Source of the DNA: Puniceicoccaceae bacterium
GTDB taxonomy: Bacteria; Verrucomicrobiota; Verrucomicrobiia; Opitutales; Opitutaceae
DNA length: 39,528 nt
Assembly: GCA_007695295.1 (NCBI GenBank)
Contig: REEB01000151.1
Coordinates: 1 to 39,528 of the forward strand
Direction of reading: 5' to 3'
Positions 29,535-38,241 of this stretch are shown here, piece by piece (the first letter of the stretch is position 1; the number at the start of each line of letters is the position of its first letter). Below the pieces are notes generated by a model. It was not told the DNA's origin and did no database searches. It saw only the letters and a list, made by a program, of their open reading frames with translations. Position numbers and translations under genes: made by a program.

Positions 29535-30683
29535 TTATTCCGCGGTCAGGGGCAAGTGCGCCGTACGAGCGATGCGGAAGCCGATTCGACCGGAGCCCGT
29601 CACCCAAAAATCCCGGGCGGCCGCACGAACCAAACCGGGCGTCTGATTGTATCCACCACCTCGTACCACGCGCAAGCTGACGGGAGCAATTGGCCCGATC
29701 GGATCGACCAGCGGCCCGTCCATCGCATCGGGATCGGGATAGACGTTTCCGGTGGAAGCATCGAAGACGATTTCCAGCACATTTCCCAGCATGTCATAAA
29801 GACCCCAGGGGTTGGGTTGCTTCCCGCCGACCGGATGGGTCTGGCCGCCGCTGTTGGCGCCATACCAAGCGATGGCATCGAGAGCCGGGTCAACCACCTC
29901 CGTGCCGAGGACGGTGAGATCGCCGTTGTAAGTGGCCGTGGTCGTGCCCGCGCGGGCGGCGTATTCCCACTCCGCTTCGGTGGGCAGCCGGAAGCCGTTG
30001 GCGTCGAAATCACAGACCCAGTCGCCACCCACCCATGAACGGATGACCTGCCCGTCAAAACCGCTGCCGACCCAGCGGTAGCACGGCTCGAGGCGGTTCA
30101 TCTCACTGAGGGCATTCGACCAGAGAATGGCGTCGCGCCAGTTCATCGCCGTGACCGGATCGTCCTCGGTGTTGCGCTCGTCGCCGTGGCTTCCCTTCCG
30201 GCCGGGGGTCGCGAAGGTGTAGCCGTTGTACACCGCCCAGTCCTTCACCATGGCCCACTGGCGCCAGGTGACCGGGGTTTTCAGCAGCTTGAAAGCGCGG
30301 GTCAGCGTGACGGAGTGCTGGCGTTCATGAGAAAAAGTGCCGGGATCGGCGCCCGATCGCCCCAACTCATCCCCGGGGCTGCCCCGAAAGTAGGTTCCGG
30401 GCATGATGGTGACGAACTGCTCGGCGAAACTGAAGTCCTGCTCGGCCAGCCGAACCCGGAAGAAGGCCTCCCTCCCCACCTCGAGGTTGGAAACGATCAG
30501 CTTGCCGTCGGGAGTGATCATGTAGGGTGTGAAACGCAGCGTCTCCCAAGTCTGCATGCCATCCTGGGACTGGTCGATCTCGAGGATCGCCCAACTCGCC
30601 GCGGCCGGTGAAGAACCAAACAGAGTCAGAGAAGCACAGACCAGGAGGCAACGAAGGAAAATAGGAGATATTGTTATGGTCAT
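29535..30683 (-). CDS. Secreted SUMF1/FGE-fold protein (formylglycine-generating-enzyme family, probably not catalytic)
   Basis: 382 residues. Signal peptide about 1-30 (LRCLLVCASLTLFGSSPAAA). Residues about 30-80 are a small N-terminal module ending in EAFFRVRLAEQ. The rest is the SUMF/FGE-sulfatase domain: FVTIMPGTYFRGSPGDELGR, TRAFKLLKTPVTWRQW, FRLPTEAEWEYAARAGT, PWGLYDMLGNVLEIVFD, RVVRGGGYNQTP and the end GRIGFRIAR. The copper-binding cysteines of genuine formylglycine-generating enzymes, which lie near the C-terminus, are not visible, so I do not expect sulfatase maturation; many such paralogues bind ligands or glycans. It is convergent with the small gene at 29195 and divergent from the GH36 gene across 150 bases that include a tandem repeat. 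Confidence 0.87.
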   Translation of the reverse strand: MTITISPIFLRCLLVCASLTLFGSSPAAASWAILEIDQSQDGMQTWETLRFTPYMITPDGKLIVSNLEVGREAFFRVRLAEQDFSFAEQFVTIMPGTYFRGSPGDELGRSGADPGTFSHERQHSVTLTRAFKLLKTPVTWRQWAMVKDWAVYNGYTFATPGRKGSHGDERNTEDDPVTAMNWRDAILWSNALSEMNRLEPCYRWVGSGFDGQVIRSWVGGDWVCDFDANGFRLPTEAEWEYAARAGTTTATYNGDLTVLGTEVVDPALDAIAWYGANSGGQTHPVGGKQPNPWGLYDMLGNVLEIVFDASTGNVYPDPDAMDGPLVDPIGPIAPVSLRVVRGGGYNQTPGLVRAAARDFWVTGSGRIGFRIARTAHLPLTAE

Positions 30684-30732
30684 TAATCTTGCTTAATCTA
30701 ATTCACCCCGGGATCGTCAAGCCGACAGTGCC

Positions 30733-30833: not shown

Positions 30834-32825
30834 ATGCCATTGCCCCACAAATCCCTCTTTCCCCCGGCTCCCGCCGGCACCCGCCGCACCCCGCTCGCCT
30901 CCGAACGGGTGCGCTACGATCTCCCCGCGGCTGCGGTCGGCCGGGGCTCGGTCGCAGGCTGGCGCTTCCCCGGCCTCGAGCGTTGGTGCGCCCTCCACCT
31001 GCGCAGCATCTTCTGGTCGGGACCCGCCTGGGGGACAAATCCCGCCGCCATCCCGCCCGACACCCAGTGCCTGCTCTGGCAACGGCGGGACGGGACCTGC
31101 GGCGCTTTCCTCCCGCTGGTCTCGGGCAACCTCTGCGCCACCCTGCAGCCTTCGCCCAAGGGTCCCGTGCTCCAGCTCGCCGGCGCCGCCCCCGGCGACA
31201 ATCCCATCGCCCGTCCCGGCGCCGTCGCCGCGCTCGGTGCGAGCCCCGCGGCCGCGCTCCAGGCCGCCTTGGAAGCCGCCCGTGAAGTCCTCGGCACCTT
31301 TCGCCTCCGCGAGGAAAAGCCCCGGCCGGCATTTCTCGACTGGTTCGGCTGGTGCACCTGGGATGCCTTCTACCACAGCGTCTCCCAGGCCGGCGTTCGC
31401 CAAGGGCTGAGTACGTTTCAGAAGGGAGGCACGGTGCCGGGTTTTGTCATCATCGATGACGGCTGGCTCGACACCGAGGGCGACCACCTCAAGGACTTTC
31501 CCGCCCGGGCGGATAAATTTCCCGGCGGTCTCTCCGCCCTCGCCGCGACCGCAAGAAAGACCGGGGTGCGGCTCTTCGGGGTCTGGCATGCCTTCCAAGG
31601 CTACTGGGCCGGGCCCCACCCCAAGGGGCCTCTCTCCCGGCGCTACCAGCTCCATGTTCAGCCCGGCAACATCCGCCCCTGGAATCCGGAGGAGACCCGC
31701 GACCTCTCCCGTATCCATGATTCGGATATAGCCCGATTCTACCAGGATTTCCACCGCTACCTCCGCGACCAAGGCGTCGATCTGGTCAAGGTCGACGGCC
31801 AGTCCGCCCTCCAACGCTTCTGTGAGGGTAGCGCCGGCCGCGGCGAGACCATGGGCCGCTGGCAGGAAGCCCTCCAGGGGGCCGCGGCGGTGCACTTCCG
31901 CGGCAACCTGCTCCACTGCATGTGCAATGGCAACGATGTCGCCTACCACCTCCTCAACTCCAACGCTTGGCGCAATTCCGACGACTACTTTCCCCGCCGC
32001 GGCCCCGACCAGCAGCAGCTCCATCTCGTTCTCAACGCCTACAATGCCCTCTGGAGCGGCGGTTTTTCCTGGCCGGACTGGGACATGTTTCAGTCCCACG
32101 GCCCGGCCGCCGATTTCCACGCCGTCGCCCGTTCCATCAGCGGCGGTCCGGTATATGTCAGCGATCACCCGGGCAAGCAGGACTTCGCCCTCCTCCGGCG
32201 GCTCGCTCTGCCGACCGGAGCCGTGCCAACCTGGGACCGACCGGCCACCGTCACCAACGATCTGGTCTTCACCAATGTCCTCGAAGAGCCGGTTGCTCTC
32301 AAAATCCACAATTACCGTGGTCCGCTCGGCGTGCTCGGCTGTTTCCATTGCTGGACCGGGCACGACGATCGCCCGGTGGCCGCCCGCTGGCGGCCCGCCG
32401 ATGTGCCGGAGCTGCCCCGCTCCGGTGCCTTTCTCGCTTACCAGCCCGCCACCGGAGAGGTCCGCGAAGTCTCCTCCCGCAAAGTCCAGCGCGACACCCT
32501 CCCTCCCCTCGGCTGGAGCCTCTGGGTTCTCGCGCCCATCGGCCCCGCGGCCGCCGTCCCCCTCGGCTTGGCTGATCTCTGGAGCGGGGCCGCCGCCCTC
32601 GATGCCATCGTCCATGAGGCCGAAGACGAACTCGCTTTCCGCCTCCGCCACCCCGGACGCGCCCTCTTCTGGAGCCGGCGGACGCCGTCCACCATCCGGG
32701 TCGACGGCCGCTCCGTCCGCCCGAAACCGCTTGGCTCAGGCCTGTATTCGGTTTTGTGCGACAAGGCGGAGCGCCCGCTGGTCCGGATCCGTTTCGCAAC
32801 GAAATCCGGCAGGAAACGCCGCTGA
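30834..32825 (+). CDS. GH36 alpha-galactosidase / raffinose-synthase-like (Sip1-type) protein
   Basis: 663 residues. It matches the raffinose synthase/Sip1 branch of GH36: WFGWCTWDAFYHSVSQAG (about 170-187), VPGFVIIDDGWLDTEGDHLK (201-220), the catalytic nucleophile D321 in VDLVKVDGQSA and the acid/base in RNSDDYFPR (D383 or D384), WSGGFSWPDWDMFQ and ISGGPVYVSDHPGKQ. The N-terminal ~165 residues form the beta-sandwich domain; a C-terminal beta domain follows about residue 530. No signal peptide, so cytoplasmic. Activity could be alpha-galactoside hydrolysis or galactosyl transfer to sucrose; the sequence does not say which. It is convergent with the GH130 gene (10 bases apart). Confidence 0.9.
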   Translation: MPLPHKSLFPPAPAGTRRTPLASERVRYDLPAAAVGRGSVAGWRFPGLERWCALHLRSIFWSGPAWGTNPAAIPPDTQCLLWQRRDGTCGAFLPLVSGNLCATLQPSPKGPVLQLAGAAPGDNPIARPGAVAALGASPAAALQAALEAAREVLGTFRLREEKPRPAFLDWFGWCTWDAFYHSVSQAGVRQGLSTFQKGGTVPGFVIIDDGWLDTEGDHLKDFPARADKFPGGLSALAATARKTGVRLFGVWHAFQGYWAGPHPKGPLSRRYQLHVQPGNIRPWNPEETRDLSRIHDSDIARFYQDFHRYLRDQGVDLVKVDGQSALQRFCEGSAGRGETMGRWQEALQGAAAVHFRGNLLHCMCNGNDVAYHLLNSNAWRNSDDYFPRRGPDQQQLHLVLNAYNALWSGGFSWPDWDMFQSHGPAADFHAVARSISGGPVYVSDHPGKQDFALLRRLALPTGAVPTWDRPATVTNDLVFTNVLEEPVALKIHNYRGPLGVLGCFHCWTGHDDRPVAARWRPADVPELPRSGAFLAYQPATGEVREVSSRKVQRDTLPPLGWSLWVLAPIGPAAAVPLGLADLWSGAAALDAIVHEAEDELAFRLRHPGRALFWSRRTPSTIRVDGRSVRPKPLGSGLYSVLCDKAERPLVRIRFATKSGRKRR

Positions 32826-32834
32826 GTTTCGGGC

Positions 32835-33875
32835 TCAGACCCGGTGATCGAGGACGTGCCCCAGGAGCGCGTCGAGCGGGGCGGTGGCCAGCGCGATGGC
32901 GGTGTCGCAAACGCCGTAGTACAAGTGCACCACCCCGTCGCGCACCACCAGGCCGGTCGGAAAGATGACGTTGGGTATGTAGAGCCCGGTGCGCTCGTAG
33001 TAGGCCTCCGGCTCCATGATGAAGTGCGGGCAGCGCGCCACCACCCGGCGCGGATCCTCCAAGTCGAGCAGGGCCGCCCCCACCCGGTAGCAGACGCGCC
33101 GGTCGGCGCTCTCCTCGGTCTCCACTCCGTGGTAGAGGACCAGCCAGCCCGCCTCGGTCCGCAGTGGCGGGGTTGACCCTCCGATGCGGTTGTTCTCCCA
33201 GCGAAACTCCGGCTTCAGCACGACCTCCGGTTCGCTCCAGGTCTTCAGGTCTTCGGAAAAGCTGATCCGGATCGACGGCGCCCCACGATGCTGCGCCCCG
33301 GTGGAAACGAGCGGACTGGGTCGCCGCAGGACCGCGTAGCGACCGCCCACTTTCTCCGGGAAGAGGATCACATTGCGGTCGTCCACCTCGGGGGGATTGA
33401 CCCAGCCGAGAATTTCCCAGTGTCGCAGATCTTCGGATACGGCGATCCCGGAGCGGGTCTGGTTGTCTTCGTCGCGCCCGCTGAAGCCGGGGTAATCCAC
33501 CTGGCGGGACTCCGGCACGCCCACCCCGGTGGGATGGCTGGCCCAAGCATAGGGGCGGAAGGCAAAGGTGAGGTAGAAGCGGTCCTCCATCGCCACGATG
33601 CGCGGATCCTGCACGCTGCCGTGGGGACTGCCGCAGTCCGCCGGAGTCAGCACCGGCTCGTCGACAGCGTGGCGGAAATGAACCCCGTCCGCGCTCTCCA
33701 GGAGGCCGAGGCAGCAATGAAATGGCCGCAGCCCTCCGGCCGCCCGCTCAAGCAGGTAGACCTTGCCGGCGTGGGCCACCGCACCCGGGTTGAAGACCAC
33801 CGCCCGCCGCCAAGGCAGTCCTCCGGGCCGGACGATGGGATTTTCGGGATGGCGTTCGAAGCGAAATGCCTTCAT
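32835..33875 (-). CDS. GH130 family protein (beta-mannoside phosphorylase or beta-mannosidase)
   Basis: 346 residues, a five-bladed beta-propeller typical of GH130. The key segment VQDPRIVAMEDRFYLTFAFR (88-107) carries the proposed proton-donor Asp D90 of the family E/QDPR motif. Other family motifs: RDEDNQTRSGIAVSEDLRHW, DDRNVILFPEKVGGRYAVLRRP, WLVLYHGVETE and IPNVIFPTGLVVRDGVVHLY. The C-terminus is a typical LYYGVCDTAIALATAPLDALL. GH130 enzymes cleave beta-1,4- or beta-1,2-mannosides, with phosphate in the phosphorylases; the linkage cannot be told here. No signal peptide. Convergent with GH36; 116 bases without a gene lie between its start and the next gene's end. Confidence 0.93.
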   Translation of the reverse strand: MKAFRFERHPENPIVRPGGLPWRRAVVFNPGAVAHAGKVYLLERAAGGLRPFHCCLGLLESADGVHFRHAVDEPVLTPADCGSPHGSVQDPRIVAMEDRFYLTFAFRPYAWASHPTGVGVPESRQVDYPGFSGRDEDNQTRSGIAVSEDLRHWEILGWVNPPEVDDRNVILFPEKVGGRYAVLRRPSPLVSTGAQHRGAPSIRISFSEDLKTWSEPEVVLKPEFRWENNRIGGSTPPLRTEAGWLVLYHGVETEESADRRVCYRVGAALLDLEDPRRVVARCPHFIMEPEAYYERTGLYIPNVIFPTGLVVRDGVVHLYYGVCDTAIALATAPLDALLGHVLDHRV

Positions 33876-33991
33876 CCGCGCAGCCTAGGCCGGGACGGCG
33901 CCGGGCTGCCAATACTTTTTGCCGGGTATTCATTCAACGATGACGGTGCGAACCAAGGAATCGGCTTCAGCAGCGGCGGGCATCTCCCACC

Positions 33992-34891
33992 TCACGGAGC
34001 AAGGGGCGGTCGCGCCTCAACCTTGAAGAACCCCCGGTCGCCCGCGACGAGCAGAAAGCTGCGCGCGGTCGTCATTCCGGGATCGGCGACGAACGGACCA
34101 AGACCCACATCCGTCCAAGCGACGCTCGAGCCAGGCGCGGGGCTGTGGAGGATGCGATAAACGCGGAGGGGAACAGAGGTAAACCCGATTTCGAACTGCT
34201 CGTTGGCAACATCCGCGGTAATATGGATCACCCGGAGGTTGCTGGTTGGATCGAGAGGATCGGTGCCGGCCCCGTACTCATCCAAGTCTGACATGCCGTC
34301 GCCATCGTAATCACCCGTGCCCAGTGTGTGAAGATTGCCCGCGACCTGCCACTCGTAGGCGTCGGGGATGCCGTCGTTGTCCTCGTCCGGTCCGGTGCTC
34401 AGGTTGAGCGCGTTGAAGCCGGCAAACCCTTCGCCGAGATTGATCCACCCGAGATTGGGTGACCAAGCATAACCGCCCATCCAACCAGTGAGCAAGTTGA
34501 GCCGGGGATTGCCTTCGTCTTCGAAGACGATCCAGCCGGTATTGGCGCTCCAGGCCAGGCCGCGGAGCCGGGCGGTGCCGTCGGGATTCGATCCGGCAAG
34601 GTTTACGCCGGAGTCGGCGCCGGAGGTGTTGGAGTAGGCATAGCCGTTGGCAGGCTGGCCCTTGCCCAGGGACACCCACCCGGTGTTGGCGGACCAACAG
34701 TGACCCTGCAGGTAAAACAACCCGCAGGCGGCCCCGCGTGCATCGCCCGAGAGACCATGAATCCAGCCGGAGTTCGGGCTCCATGCATGGGTCCCGGCAG
34801 GGGCGAGATTTCCCCCGGCGAAGAGAAGGGGAGGGAGAGCGAAGGAGAGTCCGCTGAAAGCAGCAAGCAGGGTGAGTCGGATCAAATGCAT
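33992..34891 (-). CDS. Secreted protein with four WSxNxGW repeats and thrombospondin type 3-like calcium repeats
   Basis: 299 residues from the ATG at 34891, which has a clear GGAGG at a spacing of 6. Signal peptide about 1-25 (LIRLTLLAAFSGLSFALPPLLFA). Residues 30-150 contain four short repeats with the pattern WS(P/A)Nx GW: AWSPNSGW at 37-44, CWSANTGW at 66-73, AWSANTGW at 114-121 and AWSPNLGW at 143-150. Residues 167-215 have two aspartate-rich calcium loops of the thrombospondin type 3 kind (DEDNDGIPDAYEW and GDYDGDGMSDLDEY). Residues about 220-299 form a beta module ending in GFFKVEARPP. Function unknown; probably a surface or extracellular calcium-stabilised protein. It is probably controlled by the dyads at 35030-35080. 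Confidence 0.8.
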   Translation of the reverse strand: MHLIRLTLLAAFSGLSFALPPLLFAGGNLAPAGTHAWSPNSGWIHGLSGDARGAACGLFYLQGHCWSANTGWVSLGKGQPANGYAYSNTSGADSGVNLAGSNPDGTARLRGLAWSANTGWIVFEDEGNPRLNLLTGWMGGYAWSPNLGWINLGEGFAGFNALNLSTGPDEDNDGIPDAYEWQVAGNLHTLGTGDYDGDGMSDLDEYGAGTDPLDPTSNLRVIHITADVANEQFEIGFTSVPLRVYRILHSPAPGSSVAWTDVGLGPFVADPGMTTARSFLLVAGDRGFFKVEARPPLAP

Positions 34892-34897
34892 GGCAGG

Positions 34898-34902
34898 CCT
34901 CC
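34898..34902 (-). promoter_or_regulatory. Ribosome binding site fixing the start of the thrombospondin-repeat protein
   Basis: Minus-strand GGAGG, 6 bases before the ATG at 34891. It decides the start because the reading frame is open much further upstream, through bases that contain the operator-like dyads. Confidence 0.8.
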
Positions 34903-35029
34903 GGGTTGGATTCAGTTGGTGCCGAGGTAATTCGGGCTGGCAGGGTTGAATGGGCTGGTGTTGAGCGACCACCATCAGAGGGCCGCAGCAACCGGCCTTC
35001 ATGATGCCGATAAGTGGCCTCGTCCGCAA

Positions 35030-35080
35030 TCGGCCTTTGGTCGGATTCTGCGGGCGACCGCCGGTCCGACCAAAGTCGGA
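35030..35080. promoter_or_regulatory. Two copies of a 16-bp dyad upstream of the thrombospondin-repeat gene
   Basis: A perfect copy TCCGACCAAAGTCGGA lies at 35065-35080 (6-bp arms, 4-base centre). A second copy at 35030-35045, TCGGCCTTTGGTCGGA on the plus strand, matches the reverse complement of the first at 14 of 16 bases. The centres are 35 bp apart, about 3.3 helical turns. They lie about 140 to 190 bases upstream of the gene at 34891, and downstream of the response-regulator stop (35144). The identical dyad is found upstream of the kinase at 38169-38184. They are not followed by T-tracts, so they are poor terminator candidates. Confidence 0.6.
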
Positions 35081-35143
35081 AGCGCCGCCGGCCGCTCTCC
35101 GTCTTCTCGTTTCCGAATCCGAGCGCGAGCCCGGCCGGGCTCA

Positions 35144-35809
35144 TCATCCGGCTGCCGGATGGCGGCGGGTGGCGAGAATCTCCAATGCCCGCACCGTGGC
35201 CGCGTTCCGCCCTTCCACGCCGAGTTTCTGAAAGACACTGCCAAGGTGCTGCTTCACGGTCTTCTCCGCCATGCTAAGGATGCAGCCGATATCGGCATTG
35301 CTTTTGCCCTGGGCTGTCCAGAGCAAAACTTCGGCCTCGCGGTGAGTGAGGCCGAATGCCGTCCGCAGCGGTTCGGGCGAGCTGAAGTCCGGGTTGAAGG
35401 CCGCCGATCCCAGGGTTTGCGCCAGCGCCGTGGCTCGCTCAAGGCGCGCGTGCACCGCGGCCAACAAGTCCTCGCGAACCACCGGTTTGCAGAGGTAGTC
35501 ATCGGCCCCAAAATTCATCCCCACACGTACATCAGCGGCACCGCCCCGGGCGGTCAGAAATATAAAGGGCACGGTCCGCCCGGCTTCCTCCCCGCGCAAG
35601 GTTTGGAGGACGGCAAACCCATCCAGCTCCGGCATCATGACATCGCAGATGATGAGGTCGGGCCGGAGGCTTCGGGCCACTTCCAGGCCGGTGCGGCCGT
35701 TTTCCGCCGTCACCACTTGGAAACCCTCCATCTCCAGCATGAGGGCGAGATTGCGCCTCATGGGAGGCTGGTCCTCAATAAGAAGAATTCGTTTCGTGGG
35801 ACGGTCCAT
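35144..35809 (-). CDS. NarL/LuxR-family response regulator
   Basis: 221 residues. Receiver domain 6-120 with the acidic pocket (LLIEDQPP), phospho-acceptor D56 (IICDVMMPELDG), T86 and K108. A DNA-binding GerE helix-turn-helix at about 153-212: LTHREAEVLLWTAQGKSNAD then EKTVKQHLGSVFQKLGVEGR. It follows the sensor kinase gene with 11 bases between (kinase stop at 35821), so the pair is one operon. The start ATG at 35809 is used; an in-frame TTG at 35824 overlaps the kinase stop and adds five residues. LuxR-type regulators bind dyad sites of about 16-20 bp, so the dyads at 38169 and 35030-35080 are candidate operators. Confidence 0.95.
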   Translation of the reverse strand: MDRPTKRILLIEDQPPMRRNLALMLEMEGFQVVTAENGRTGLEVARSLRPDLIICDVMMPELDGFAVLQTLRGEEAGRTVPFIFLTARGGAADVRVGMNFGADDYLCKPVVREDLLAAVHARLERATALAQTLGSAAFNPDFSSPEPLRTAFGLTHREAEVLLWTAQGKSNADIGCILSMAEKTVKQHLGSVFQKLGVEGRNAATVRALEILATRRHPAAG

Positions 35810-35820
35810 GGCGTGTGATC

Positions 35821-38106
35821 TCAAGCGGATCCGGCGGATAGCGCGGGTGCGCCGGCGGTTTCAAAAAGCGGCAGGCAAACAGTAAACGTAGTGCCCACTT
35901 CGACTTCGGACTCCACGGCGATGGAGCCGCCATGCAGTTCCACACAGCGCTTCACGATGACGAGGCCCAGGCCCGTGCCGGGGAAATCCGTGGTGTTGGA
36001 ACCGCGCTGAAAGGCCTGGAAAAGTCGGGGCAGGTCGTCCGCGGGGATGCCAATGCCATGGTCACGCACCACGAAGACAGCCTTCGAATCGGATCGCCTG
36101 ACTTCGAGCTCTATTTCCGATCCCGGCGGGGAATATTTGGCGGCATTGCCAAGCAGATTGGTGAGGATGTGCCGCAGGAGAGCTTCGTCGCTGTTGGCTT
36201 CCACCAAATCTCCCGTGGGATCAAACCGGATACGGCACTTGCCGTGACTGGCTGAGAGGCACTCGTCCACAATCCTGCCGCAGAGAGTCTTCAGGTCGAG
36301 CCGAACCGGCCGGCACCCGGTTCTCCCGGCCTCCACCCGGCCGAGGATCAGAACCTGCTCCATGATGCCGGACATCTGCAGGGTGGACTGGAATATGTCC
36401 TCGAATAAATCACGTCGCTGGTCCGCGGGAAGGCGGTCCGCGTAATGCCTGAGCAGCTCCACCGCCGACATGATGATGCCGAGCGGAGTACGGAATTCAT
36501 GCGAAACCATGGCCACAAAACGGTCCTTGAGCACGCCCAACTCCCGGGCCTGCTCGAGGGCGGCTCTCAGGTCGGCATGGGCGCTCTGCAGTTCGGTGGT
36601 GCGCTCGGCGACACGTTGCTCGAGGATTTCATTCATGGCACGGGTCCGGGCGGCGGCTATGGCAGTTTCGCCGGCCTCCGCCTCCGCCCTCCGCAGGCGG
36701 CGGGCAAGTACGAGCATCCAGCCGCCGGAAAGGCCCAGCAAGAGCACGACAAACCCAACCAGTTTCCAAAAGCGAAGGCGTGCAATGCCGGCATCGGTTC
36801 CATTGCTGACGAGGTCTTCGAAGCGGAGAACTTCCAGACGCAGAGAGCCCGCGGGGCCGGCCGAGAGCAACCCGGCCACCTCCACATCGTCATCAATTTC
36901 CGCCAGAGATCCCGGCAGGTTTTCATTGAAGTCCACCGTCGCTTCAATCTCCCGCCCCTGACTGGTGAGGGTGTGGCTCAATCGCCAGCGCCCGTTTCCG
37001 GATGGGTTGACGGACCGGGAGGTCACCCGGCCACGTACCTGGATCCAGTCGTGCCGGTGGCGATCAAGGTCGACATCAGCCAAGGCCAGATTGAGTGGCT
37101 CGAGCGGCAGCTGCTCCCCGGTGGGACGGAAACGAGCATACATCAGGTGGGGCGCGGGCTGGCGGGAGGACGGCGTTCCCACCACCTCGACGATTTCTCC
37201 GGGCCGCAGGTACGGGATGACAAACGCGTCCGGATACCAGCCATCCGCATCCACCTTGCTCCAGGGCAGGAGCGGATCAGCCGCGAAAGCACCGGTGGCG
37301 TCCCGCAGCCAGATCAGTCCATCCCGCTGGTGCAAGACCTGCGCGCGCAGACGCACCCGTTCCGGCAGCGGCGGCCGATGGCGGAGGGCGGCGCGATCAA
37401 CCAGTTCCGCTCCGAAAGGCTCCGGAGGCCCTTCGCTCACTACCTCCAGGCCGGAAGGCCAGTAAGCCAAGAGGGCGGAACTTGGGTGCTTGTTGAAGCC
37501 AAGGTTGACCCCACGAAGCAGCAGCCTCGAACCCGGGCGGTATTCGGGCGGGTGCTCCGGTGGCCAGCCTCGGATCAGGGCAACCAACCAACCCGTCGTA
37601 TCCGCCAGGTGAAGGAGCATCTCACCCCGTTCGACTTTGGTCTGAAGCACGACTGCTTCCAGCTCCACCAAATGCTCCCAATGGCGGTAAGTAGCCAAAT
37701 CTTCGATACAGGTTGGAACGACCCAGGGCGATGCGCCCGGATCCGCCGATGTCACTTCCGTGGCATCGATCCAGCGGGTTTCGTAGCCGTGGTGCGGGCC
37801 CTCTCCGAGGGCTCCGCTTACCTCCACCCAGTTCCCCACCTCCGGACAGTCCTCGGCCTCCGCTGTCCGCACCATGATGGCGGCCGTCTCCTCCTGAATG
37901 ACAAAATGCCGCCTCAGGATGCTGGTCATGGTAACTTCCCCACGAAGTCGGATTTCGCCGGTTGCCGCCAGCTGGTCGGACTCCATCTCCAGTACTTGGG
38001 CAATGGGGAGAGGGGCGGGCCGCGGAACCTCGGCGTAGACCGCCTCCGACAAAACCAGCCCCCACAGCAATGCCCACCCAGGCCAGCGTTGCCATGCGGA
38101 GATCAT
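35821..38106 (-). CDS. Membrane histidine kinase with large periplasmic OB-fold-like sensor region
   Basis: 761 residues from the ATG at 38106. Signal peptide about 1-25 (WPGWALLWGLVLSEAVYAEV). The periplasmic region (about 30-440) carries about four stretches that look like OB-folds, each with the pattern of a strand, a charged turn, and a VxV end: IRLRGEVTMTSILRRHFVIQ, then ELEAVVLQTKVERGEMLLHL, then VRLRAQVLHQRDGLIWLRDA, then WIQVRGRVTSRSVNPSGNGR. A membrane helix at about 447-468 (FVVLLLGLSGGWMLVLARRL), a coiled coil and HisKA with phospho-acceptor H536 (MVSHEFRTPLG) follow, then HATPase_c (NLLGNAAKYSPPG, VRDHGIGIP, GTGLGLVIVKRCVELHGG). No receiver domain; the partner is the regulator just downstream. 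The ligand is unknown. Confidence 0.9.
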   Translation of the reverse strand: MISAWQRWPGWALLWGLVLSEAVYAEVPRPAPLPIAQVLEMESDQLAATGEIRLRGEVTMTSILRRHFVIQEETAAIMVRTAEAEDCPEVGNWVEVSGALGEGPHHGYETRWIDATEVTSADPGASPWVVPTCIEDLATYRHWEHLVELEAVVLQTKVERGEMLLHLADTTGWLVALIRGWPPEHPPEYRPGSRLLLRGVNLGFNKHPSSALLAYWPSGLEVVSEGPPEPFGAELVDRAALRHRPPLPERVRLRAQVLHQRDGLIWLRDATGAFAADPLLPWSKVDADGWYPDAFVIPYLRPGEIVEVVGTPSSRQPAPHLMYARFRPTGEQLPLEPLNLALADVDLDRHRHDWIQVRGRVTSRSVNPSGNGRWRLSHTLTSQGREIEATVDFNENLPGSLAEIDDDVEVAGLLSAGPAGSLRLEVLRFEDLVSNGTDAGIARLRFWKLVGFVVLLLGLSGGWMLVLARRLRRAEAEAGETAIAAARTRAMNEILEQRVAERTTELQSAHADLRAALEQARELGVLKDRFVAMVSHEFRTPLGIIMSAVELLRHYADRLPADQRRDLFEDIFQSTLQMSGIMEQVLILGRVEAGRTGCRPVRLDLKTLCGRIVDECLSASHGKCRIRFDPTGDLVEANSDEALLRHILTNLLGNAAKYSPPGSEIELEVRRSDSKAVFVVRDHGIGIPADDLPRLFQAFQRGSNTTDFPGTGLGLVIVKRCVELHGGSIAVESEVEVGTTFTVCLPLFETAGAPALSAGSA

Positions 38107-38168
38107 TTTTCGGTTCGATTTCTGACCTCGCTCACGGAGGTTGGCGATCTCCGAATTGCTCGCCCGGC

Positions 38169-38184
38169 TCCGACTTTGGTCGGA
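38169..38184. promoter_or_regulatory. 16-bp perfect dyad, candidate operator upstream of the kinase-regulator operon
   Basis: TCCGACTTTGGTCGGA on the plus strand, 63 bases upstream of the kinase ATG (38106) and 58 bases past the oleB stop (38242). It is the exact reverse complement of the site at 35065-35080. The short flank GCGGGCGA occurs beside both this copy and the copy at 35030-35045, suggesting common origin of the promoter block. No T-tract follows, so it is unlikely to be an oleB terminator. Confidence 0.6.
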
Positions 38185-38241
38185 ATTGAAGCGGGCGAAG
38201 CTGCTGATTTCAGTCAATCCCGCGGGTGAAACCAACCGCCT

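Follow-up and report, generated by a model that had tools for sequence, protein, structure and literature searches.

In two-partner secretion (TpsA/TpsB), the gene of an exported right-handed beta-helix protein adjoins the gene of its partner, which is an Omp85 barrel with POTRA domains. In GYF, WW and EVH1 domains, aromatic residues hold proline-rich stretches. PEP-CTERM/exosortase sorting is reported to have been found by phylogenetic profiling (PMC1569441). The locus analysed here encodes a secreted-looking protein, hereafter called W, whose relatives are often encoded next to exported proteins that share a short N-terminal segment, hereafter called the tag. It is compared below with these systems and with the bacterial proteins carrying thrombospondin type 3 repeats (TSP3_bac, PF18884).

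The window, i.e., the whole stretch of 39,528 nucleotides that was analysed, contains the W gene and its features listed in Table 1. The initial annotation had described a secreted protein in which four tryptophan blocks precede calcium loops. The translation confirms the four W[SA][PA]NxGW blocks at residues 37, 66, 114 and 143, with the announced spacing of 29, 48 and 29 residues; at least one such block occurs in 14 of 100,000 residue shuffles of the protein and two blocks occur in none. The looser pattern [WY]xxxxGW also matches the protein four times, and 20,000 shuffles give at least one match in 9% of cases and a maximum of three. At the DNA level, a degenerate pattern for the blocks has five matches in the whole genome, four of which are the protein's own blocks. 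The blocks do precede TSP3-like calcium-type loops, namely the Asp-rich DxDxDGxxD loops DEDNDGIPD (residues 169-177) and DYDGDGMSD (residues 194-202). The match to TSP3_bac lies at about the Pfam gathering cut-off of 25 (24.6 bits for the whole ORF, 25.0 bits without the signal peptide). Secretion is supported in the sense that the protein looks secreted, its hydrophobic N-terminus, read by eye from the sequence, being compatible with a signal peptide.

Table 1. Features of the W gene and protein in the window (positions are those of the window)
Feature	Position	Strand	Basis
W protein, 299 aa and stop	33992..34891	-	ORF translation
Probable signal peptide, residues 1-25	34817..34891	-	Hydrophobic N-terminus read from the sequence; cleavage site inferred
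Four-motif W domain, about residues 29-157	34421..34807	-	Profile match and AlphaFold2 model
Motif 1, WSPNSGW, residues 37-43	34763..34783	-	DNA pattern match, shuffle test
Motif 2, WSANTGW, residues 66-72	34676..34696	-	DNA pattern match, shuffle test
Motif 3, WSANTGW, residues 114-120	34532..34552	-	DNA pattern match, shuffle test
Motif 4, WSPNLGW, residues 143-149	34445..34465	-	DNA pattern match, shuffle test
First calcium-type loop, DEDNDGIPDAYE, residues 169-180	34352..34387	-	Sequence
TSP3_bac repeat, residues 194-215	34247..34312	-	Pfam match
C-terminal FN3-like beta sandwich	33998..34240	-	VIA-align resemblance
C-terminal PPLAP end	33995..34009	-	Sequence

A pattern scan of 84,980 species genomes led to 239 relatives of the W domain, from which the best 80 loci (L040-L119), holding 81 W genes, were kept. 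The alignment of 74 members used throughout consists of the window protein and of the 73 of these 81 W ORFs that have 134-161 residues behind the domain. Independently of these patterns, a profile search (E<=1e-5) of 387 genomes sampled from the phylum, including the window's own genome, found W in 41. Of 102 W open frames, a set that includes duplicates, 99 have all four GW motifs; the three exceptions are one truncated copy and two frames with one GW changed. Since the four repeats stay together among homologues, in one domain of about 125 aa and near-fixed length, the free-standing WSxNxGW repeat that had been proposed as a small beta-repeat was rejected.

The repeat itself is real, and its form in the family is [YW]xANxGW[IV] rather than the proposed WS(P/A)NxGW. 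The GW pair is nearly invariant in each motif, and the expected conservation of the tryptophans holds for the second Trp of every motif, found in 74 of 74 members, an invariance that is partly built in because GW patterns served to find candidates. It does not hold for the first Trp, whose place is often taken by Tyr: residue 37 is Y in 48 members, W in 20, H in 3 and C in 2; residue 66 is Y in 50, W in 22 and F in 2; residue 114 is Y in 48 and W in 26; and residue 143 is W in 44, Y in 28, F in 1 and H in 1. Behind the domain, the first calcium-type loop conserves D169 in 60 members, D173 in 61, G174 in 67 and D177 in 61, and the TSP3_bac repeat conserves D194 in 71, D196 in 62, D198 in 64 and G199 in 70. 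As the first loop is degenerate in about 13 of the 74 members (13 have Leu at 169 and 13 have Asn at 173), calcium cannot be required throughout the family. Members that have lost this loop include L048, L052, L066, L068 and L072. The protein ends with PL plus at most three residues in 67 of 74 members, and 35 of the 74 fit the full end F-[YF]-R-x-x-A-x-x-P-L-x-P.

Searches of plasmid records gave no whole W protein and those of phage records no W domain, and a mobile-element origin of W is thus not supported. A pattern scan of viral contigs gave one W relative (L197), which may be a host fragment in the viral collection.

The W domain and the tag are covered by no curated family in Pfam or NCBIfam, and their motif strings were not found in the open-access papers searched by string. 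The initial annotation knew of no named family with this tryptophan repeat, and this was upheld by the Pfam, NCBIfam and PDB sequence searches. For the window protein, no Pfam or NCBIfam model of the W motif scores above its cut-off, and the PDB sequence search returned nothing significant (the best E values being 2.1 for the protein and 0.29 for the profile). Besides TSP3_bac, for which 51 of the 74 members give a match at E<=1, the only other Pfam match of the window protein is DUF6292 (E 3.5). Its NCBIfam matches, Amuc_1099_fam (17 bits for a cut-off of 50) and MtsD (10 bits for a cut-off of 800), both lie on the TSP3 region, and the commonest ones among the 74 members are Amuc_1099_fam (56 members, best 3e-7), MtsD (47, best 1.8e-6) and CglD (23, best 8.2e-5). 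ChW (PF07538) leaves the window protein unmatched at E<=10 and matches 6 of the 74 members (best E 0.014). The C-terminal module has no Pfam sequence match to FN3. In the same way, no Omp85 or POTRA match was obtained for the window protein (E<=10) or for the 74 members (E<=1). As for PEP-CTERM, W ends with PPLAP and has no helix there, and no such NCBIfam model matches W or six scanned tag proteins.

AlphaFold2, run on the window protein without its signal peptide and with the alignment of 74 sequences, gave a model with a mean pLDDT of 94.3 and a pTM of 0.87; for the W domain alone, these values are 86.9 and 0.83. Each motif is modelled as a strand, a turn (ANxG) and a strand. Foldseek with the W domain alone retrieved no row at E<=0.001 from PDB (best 1.4) or BFVD (best 1.1), and the rows obtained with the longer model are filled by other parts of the protein. 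The top VIA row for the domain is hemophilin (Z 6.5, rmsd 2.8, 91 aligned), followed by a quinohemoprotein amine dehydrogenase at Z 6.4 and by designed beta barrels at Z 6.1, scores in the range that unrelated models also give. The W domain is therefore best described as a probable small barrel, the models proving neither a known nor a new fold. The C-terminal module resembles FN3 in VIA-align (best Z 7.7, rmsd 2.4, 73 aligned; many FN3-type titles, all with Z below 8), with scores too low to establish that fold, and it is called FN3-like.

Neighbouring ORFs were clustered over 81 sequences, i.e., those of the 80 loci plus a part of the window. W itself was recovered in 67 of them, owing to a crude choice of ORFs, and a second family appears in 63, always in the same orientation as W. 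No other family is widely shared: the next cluster, present in 12 of 81, seems to be made of antisense frames of W, and the following one is found in 6. The second family consists of secreted-looking right-handed beta-helix proteins. Pfam Beta_helix matches five of six that were scanned, and the six have Beta_helix and NosD as their only matches at E<=0.01, with no TPS-domain match. The most constant part of this family is the tag, which comprises the 26 residues that follow the signal peptide and has the consensus QGxLTPPGAPAPTMKTLxQIEPRTxI. The tag itself is absent from the W protein. It starts with QG in 73 of 84 tag ORFs and is directly preceded by Ala in 65 of 84, so that it very probably forms the mature N-terminus.

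The partner of W was first defined as the beta-helix family, which occurs in 36 genomes, 29 of them with W. Among the 12 W genomes without a match to this family, ten neighbourhoods were fetched and a tag ORF was found beside W in five (G190, G259, G330, G353 and G364). The helix was therefore dropped and the tag taken as the definition of the partner. A beta-helix body stands behind the tag in 78 of 84 tag ORFs. Among four other bodies scanned, Lcl_C was found in two (L169 and L173) and FGE-sulfatase in one (L172). Furthermore, the tag of L178, L078, L047 and L107 is followed by a coiled coil and propeller-like repeats (labels given by eye; Pfam finds nothing in L178).

Various other arrangements were seen in these loci. 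For example, seven tag/beta-helix-family ORFs surround one W gene in L094 (1-11975), all on one strand, and a single protein in L080 (2903-4876) carries two tag-like segments in tandem ahead of its body. The beta-helix ORFs of L040-L119 display a few types of C-terminus (e.g., NPWANFxY, xYNMP, KFLGTP), which could mark subfamilies. The W genes of L169, L172 and L173 belong to a subclade with WGENxGW-like motifs, and their tag partners have the variant PTMHTLEEIY or PTMHTLEDIY, a possible co-variation of W and tag in three cases only.

With a threshold of at least 25 bits for the tag, a tag ORF lies within 3 kb of 69 of the 81 W genes of the 80 best loci, always on the same strand (69/69), and within 300 nt of 63 of them; counted by pairings, W and tag share their strand in 85 of 85 cases. 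The two genes are often spaced as in an operon: where the tag gene is upstream, the median distance from its stop to the start of W, the latter chosen by a simple rule, is 18 nt (44 measurable cases). The 12 W genes without a tag ORF within 3 kb belong to L042, L044, L058, L060, L065, L073, L091, L102, L105, L112, L114 and L115. Three of them (L073, L091 and L112) are on a short contig or at the end of one, and in L042 a beta-helix gene that is tag-like but divergent lies about 1.6 kb upstream of W. The pair is also found outside Verrucomicrobiota, in a Candidatus Sumerlaeota record (L117). In L197, a contig outside all model building, the tag gene is directly followed by W; a sugar-epimerase-like frame was seen near this pair by eye.

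The 387 genomes, which are related to one another and often incomplete, lead to a similar picture. The tag (E<=1e-5) is present in 36 and occurs together with W in 32, versus 3.8 expected (Fisher 2.9e-34, a value that ignores phylogeny); four of the 36 tag genomes lack W and nine of the 41 W genomes lack a tag at this threshold. At the genus level, W is found in 24 of 27 tag genera versus 32 of 198 genera overall (p 5e-21, Fisher, again ignoring phylogeny). A tag lies within 3.5 kb of 29 of the 51 W matches, on the same strand in all 29 and either upstream (18) or downstream (11), and 22 of the 51 have no close tag. Conversely, 40 of the 91 tags are near a W match and 51 are away from any. As the tag model was trained on genes beside W, it could miss tags in genomes devoid of W. 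In a tree built from 97 W domains, 74 of which have a tag neighbour and 23 do not, this label requires 16 changes, 9 of them forced by well-supported branches, versus a mean of 21.0 for shuffled labels. The linkage is thus clustered on the tree, yet it was gained and lost many times.

The window copy is one of those without an adjoining tag gene. The search for tag ORFs gave none in the 39.5-kb window and none up to 3 kb away from the paralogue of W in the same genome (39% identity, L002), and none of the 15 tag matches of this genome at E<=10 is on the contigs of these two genes. Three of these matches are good (contigs C140, C167 and C237), and the tag genes of C140 and C167 run to less than 400 bases from a contig end. 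The placement of the window W in the tree lacks resolution; its nearest relative, L058 (54% over 119 columns), is also devoid of a neighbouring tag. Since no tag gene adjoins it, the partnership of the window copy is extrapolated from the family and would have to act in trans, with the three tag proteins of the other contigs as possible partners.

Upstream of the window W gene are a LuxR-type response regulator (35144-35824, minus strand) and a histidine kinase (35821-38235, minus strand); downstream are a GH130 gene (32835-33875, minus strand) and a raffinose synthase/Sip1-like gene (30834-32825, plus strand). The tag family alone is widely shared beside W in the clustering of 81 sequences, and a linkage with the two-component regulator or with GH130 was therefore rejected as a trait of the family; none of these four genes gives any indication of belonging to the W system. 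The region 32700-35400 has one promoter-like site, which lies inside the W gene and is uninformative. The window also encodes, at 29541-30692 on the minus strand, an FGE-sulfatase protein (PF03781, E 5.7e-34), a type of body that can carry the tag elsewhere and is here without it.

It is highly probable that W and the tag proteins are functionally coupled in some way. Next to W the bodies change and the tag is largely constant, so that the tag is the part on which W most likely acts. The reading that we tentatively prefer, although it falls a little short of an even chance, is that W, itself secreted, serves as a companion of the exported proteins that bear the tag and handles them, most simply through binding of the proline-rich tag, with anchoring or assembly as the outcome. 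A direct action of W on the tag is a shade more doubtful. The aromatic domain and the PPGAPAPT stretch suggest direct binding, in which the domain would hold this extended segment of the tag like other aromatic cradles with polyproline. The linker loops and the FN3-like end would turn W into an anchor or assembly arm: the calcium-type loops, where present, could stiffen the linker, and the FN3-like domain could fix W on the cell surface or in the matrix. Outside the cell, display proteins with beta-helix, Lcl_C, FGE-like or propeller-like bodies might thereby be anchored or assembled by W.

The aromatic motifs also fit another role, that of a lectin in which they line glycan sites, W and tag proteins being co-regulated for polysaccharide capture and having no mutual contact. 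The neighbourhood of the window gene, with GH130 and raffinose-synthase-like genes, is in keeping with such a role, as are the many tag proteins that are beta-helices, a fold common to polysaccharide lyases, and a Laminin_G_3 match in one W open frame (L131, 28.4 bits versus 27.6) out of nine long ones that were scanned. However, neither the window protein nor the 74 members of the alignment match a lectin or CBM family of Pfam or NCBIfam, the glycoside hydrolase neighbours are not a family trait, as seen above, and a lectin role gives no reason for W to be tracked by the tag instead of the body. This explanation is considered unlikely.

W and the tag proteins could instead be two cargoes of one unseen export or surface system, joined by operon structure, with the tag read by a third component. 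Both are secreted-looking, the tag is located where a sorting signal could sit, W itself does not carry the tag and the linkage is labile on the W tree, all of which would suit two cargoes. Such a system should be weighed against the lack of a third widely shared neighbour around W, a component encoded elsewhere being possible, and against a co-occurrence of tag and W far over expectation; it appears improbable. The linkage and co-occurrence with the tag speak against a W that would be a passive spacer or adhesin arm with no special relation to the tag, its Trps being only the core of a small stable barrel. The invariant W, the nearly invariant G and the same strand-turn-strand frame in all repeats, as well as the barrels among the top structural rows, agree with this view, which is nevertheless very improbable as a whole. 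The motif Trps may be plain barrel core.

If the preferred reading of W as a companion of the tag proteins is extended to the whole set, W and tag could form a surface-display system, not described before, in Verrucomicrobiota and related bacteria, in which a common mature N-terminal tag precedes exchangeable display bodies and W, as a dedicated receptor with four aromatic motifs, would recognise this tag and anchor or assemble the display proteins outside the cell. This broader proposal is more speculative and is advanced as a possibility. A direct recognition of the tag by W, if true, would constitute a new system, centred on a domain for which Pfam and NCBIfam have no curated model. Furthermore, if a shared N-terminal tag and its linked companion are confirmed, the bodies found behind the tag would become predictable as handled by one surface system.

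The comparison with described systems reveals partial likenesses. Like bacterial TSP3 repeat proteins, W has DxDxDGxxD-like calcium-type loops after the W domain; however, the TSP3 match covers 22 of its 299 residues, and the W domain and PLxP end are outside this match. The tag system, like two-partner secretion, pairs an exported right-handed beta-helix protein with an adjoining partner gene. In contrast with TpsB, W is small and soluble-looking and has no Omp85 barrel or POTRA domains; the six tag proteins scanned gave no TPS-domain match, and the tag is also found on non-helix bodies. With GYF, WW and EVH1, the likeness concerns only the proposed binding mode, aromatics on a proline-rich stretch; W matches them neither in sequence nor in fold, and this is an analogy rather than membership. 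PEP-CTERM/exosortase sorting shares with the W locus a short conserved tag, varied exported proteins and a linked gene across genomes (PMC1569441), whereas the tag linked to W is N-terminal and W is a secreted-looking beta protein instead of a membrane enzyme. By analogy, W and the tag thus resemble known tag-and-partner arrangements for export or anchoring.
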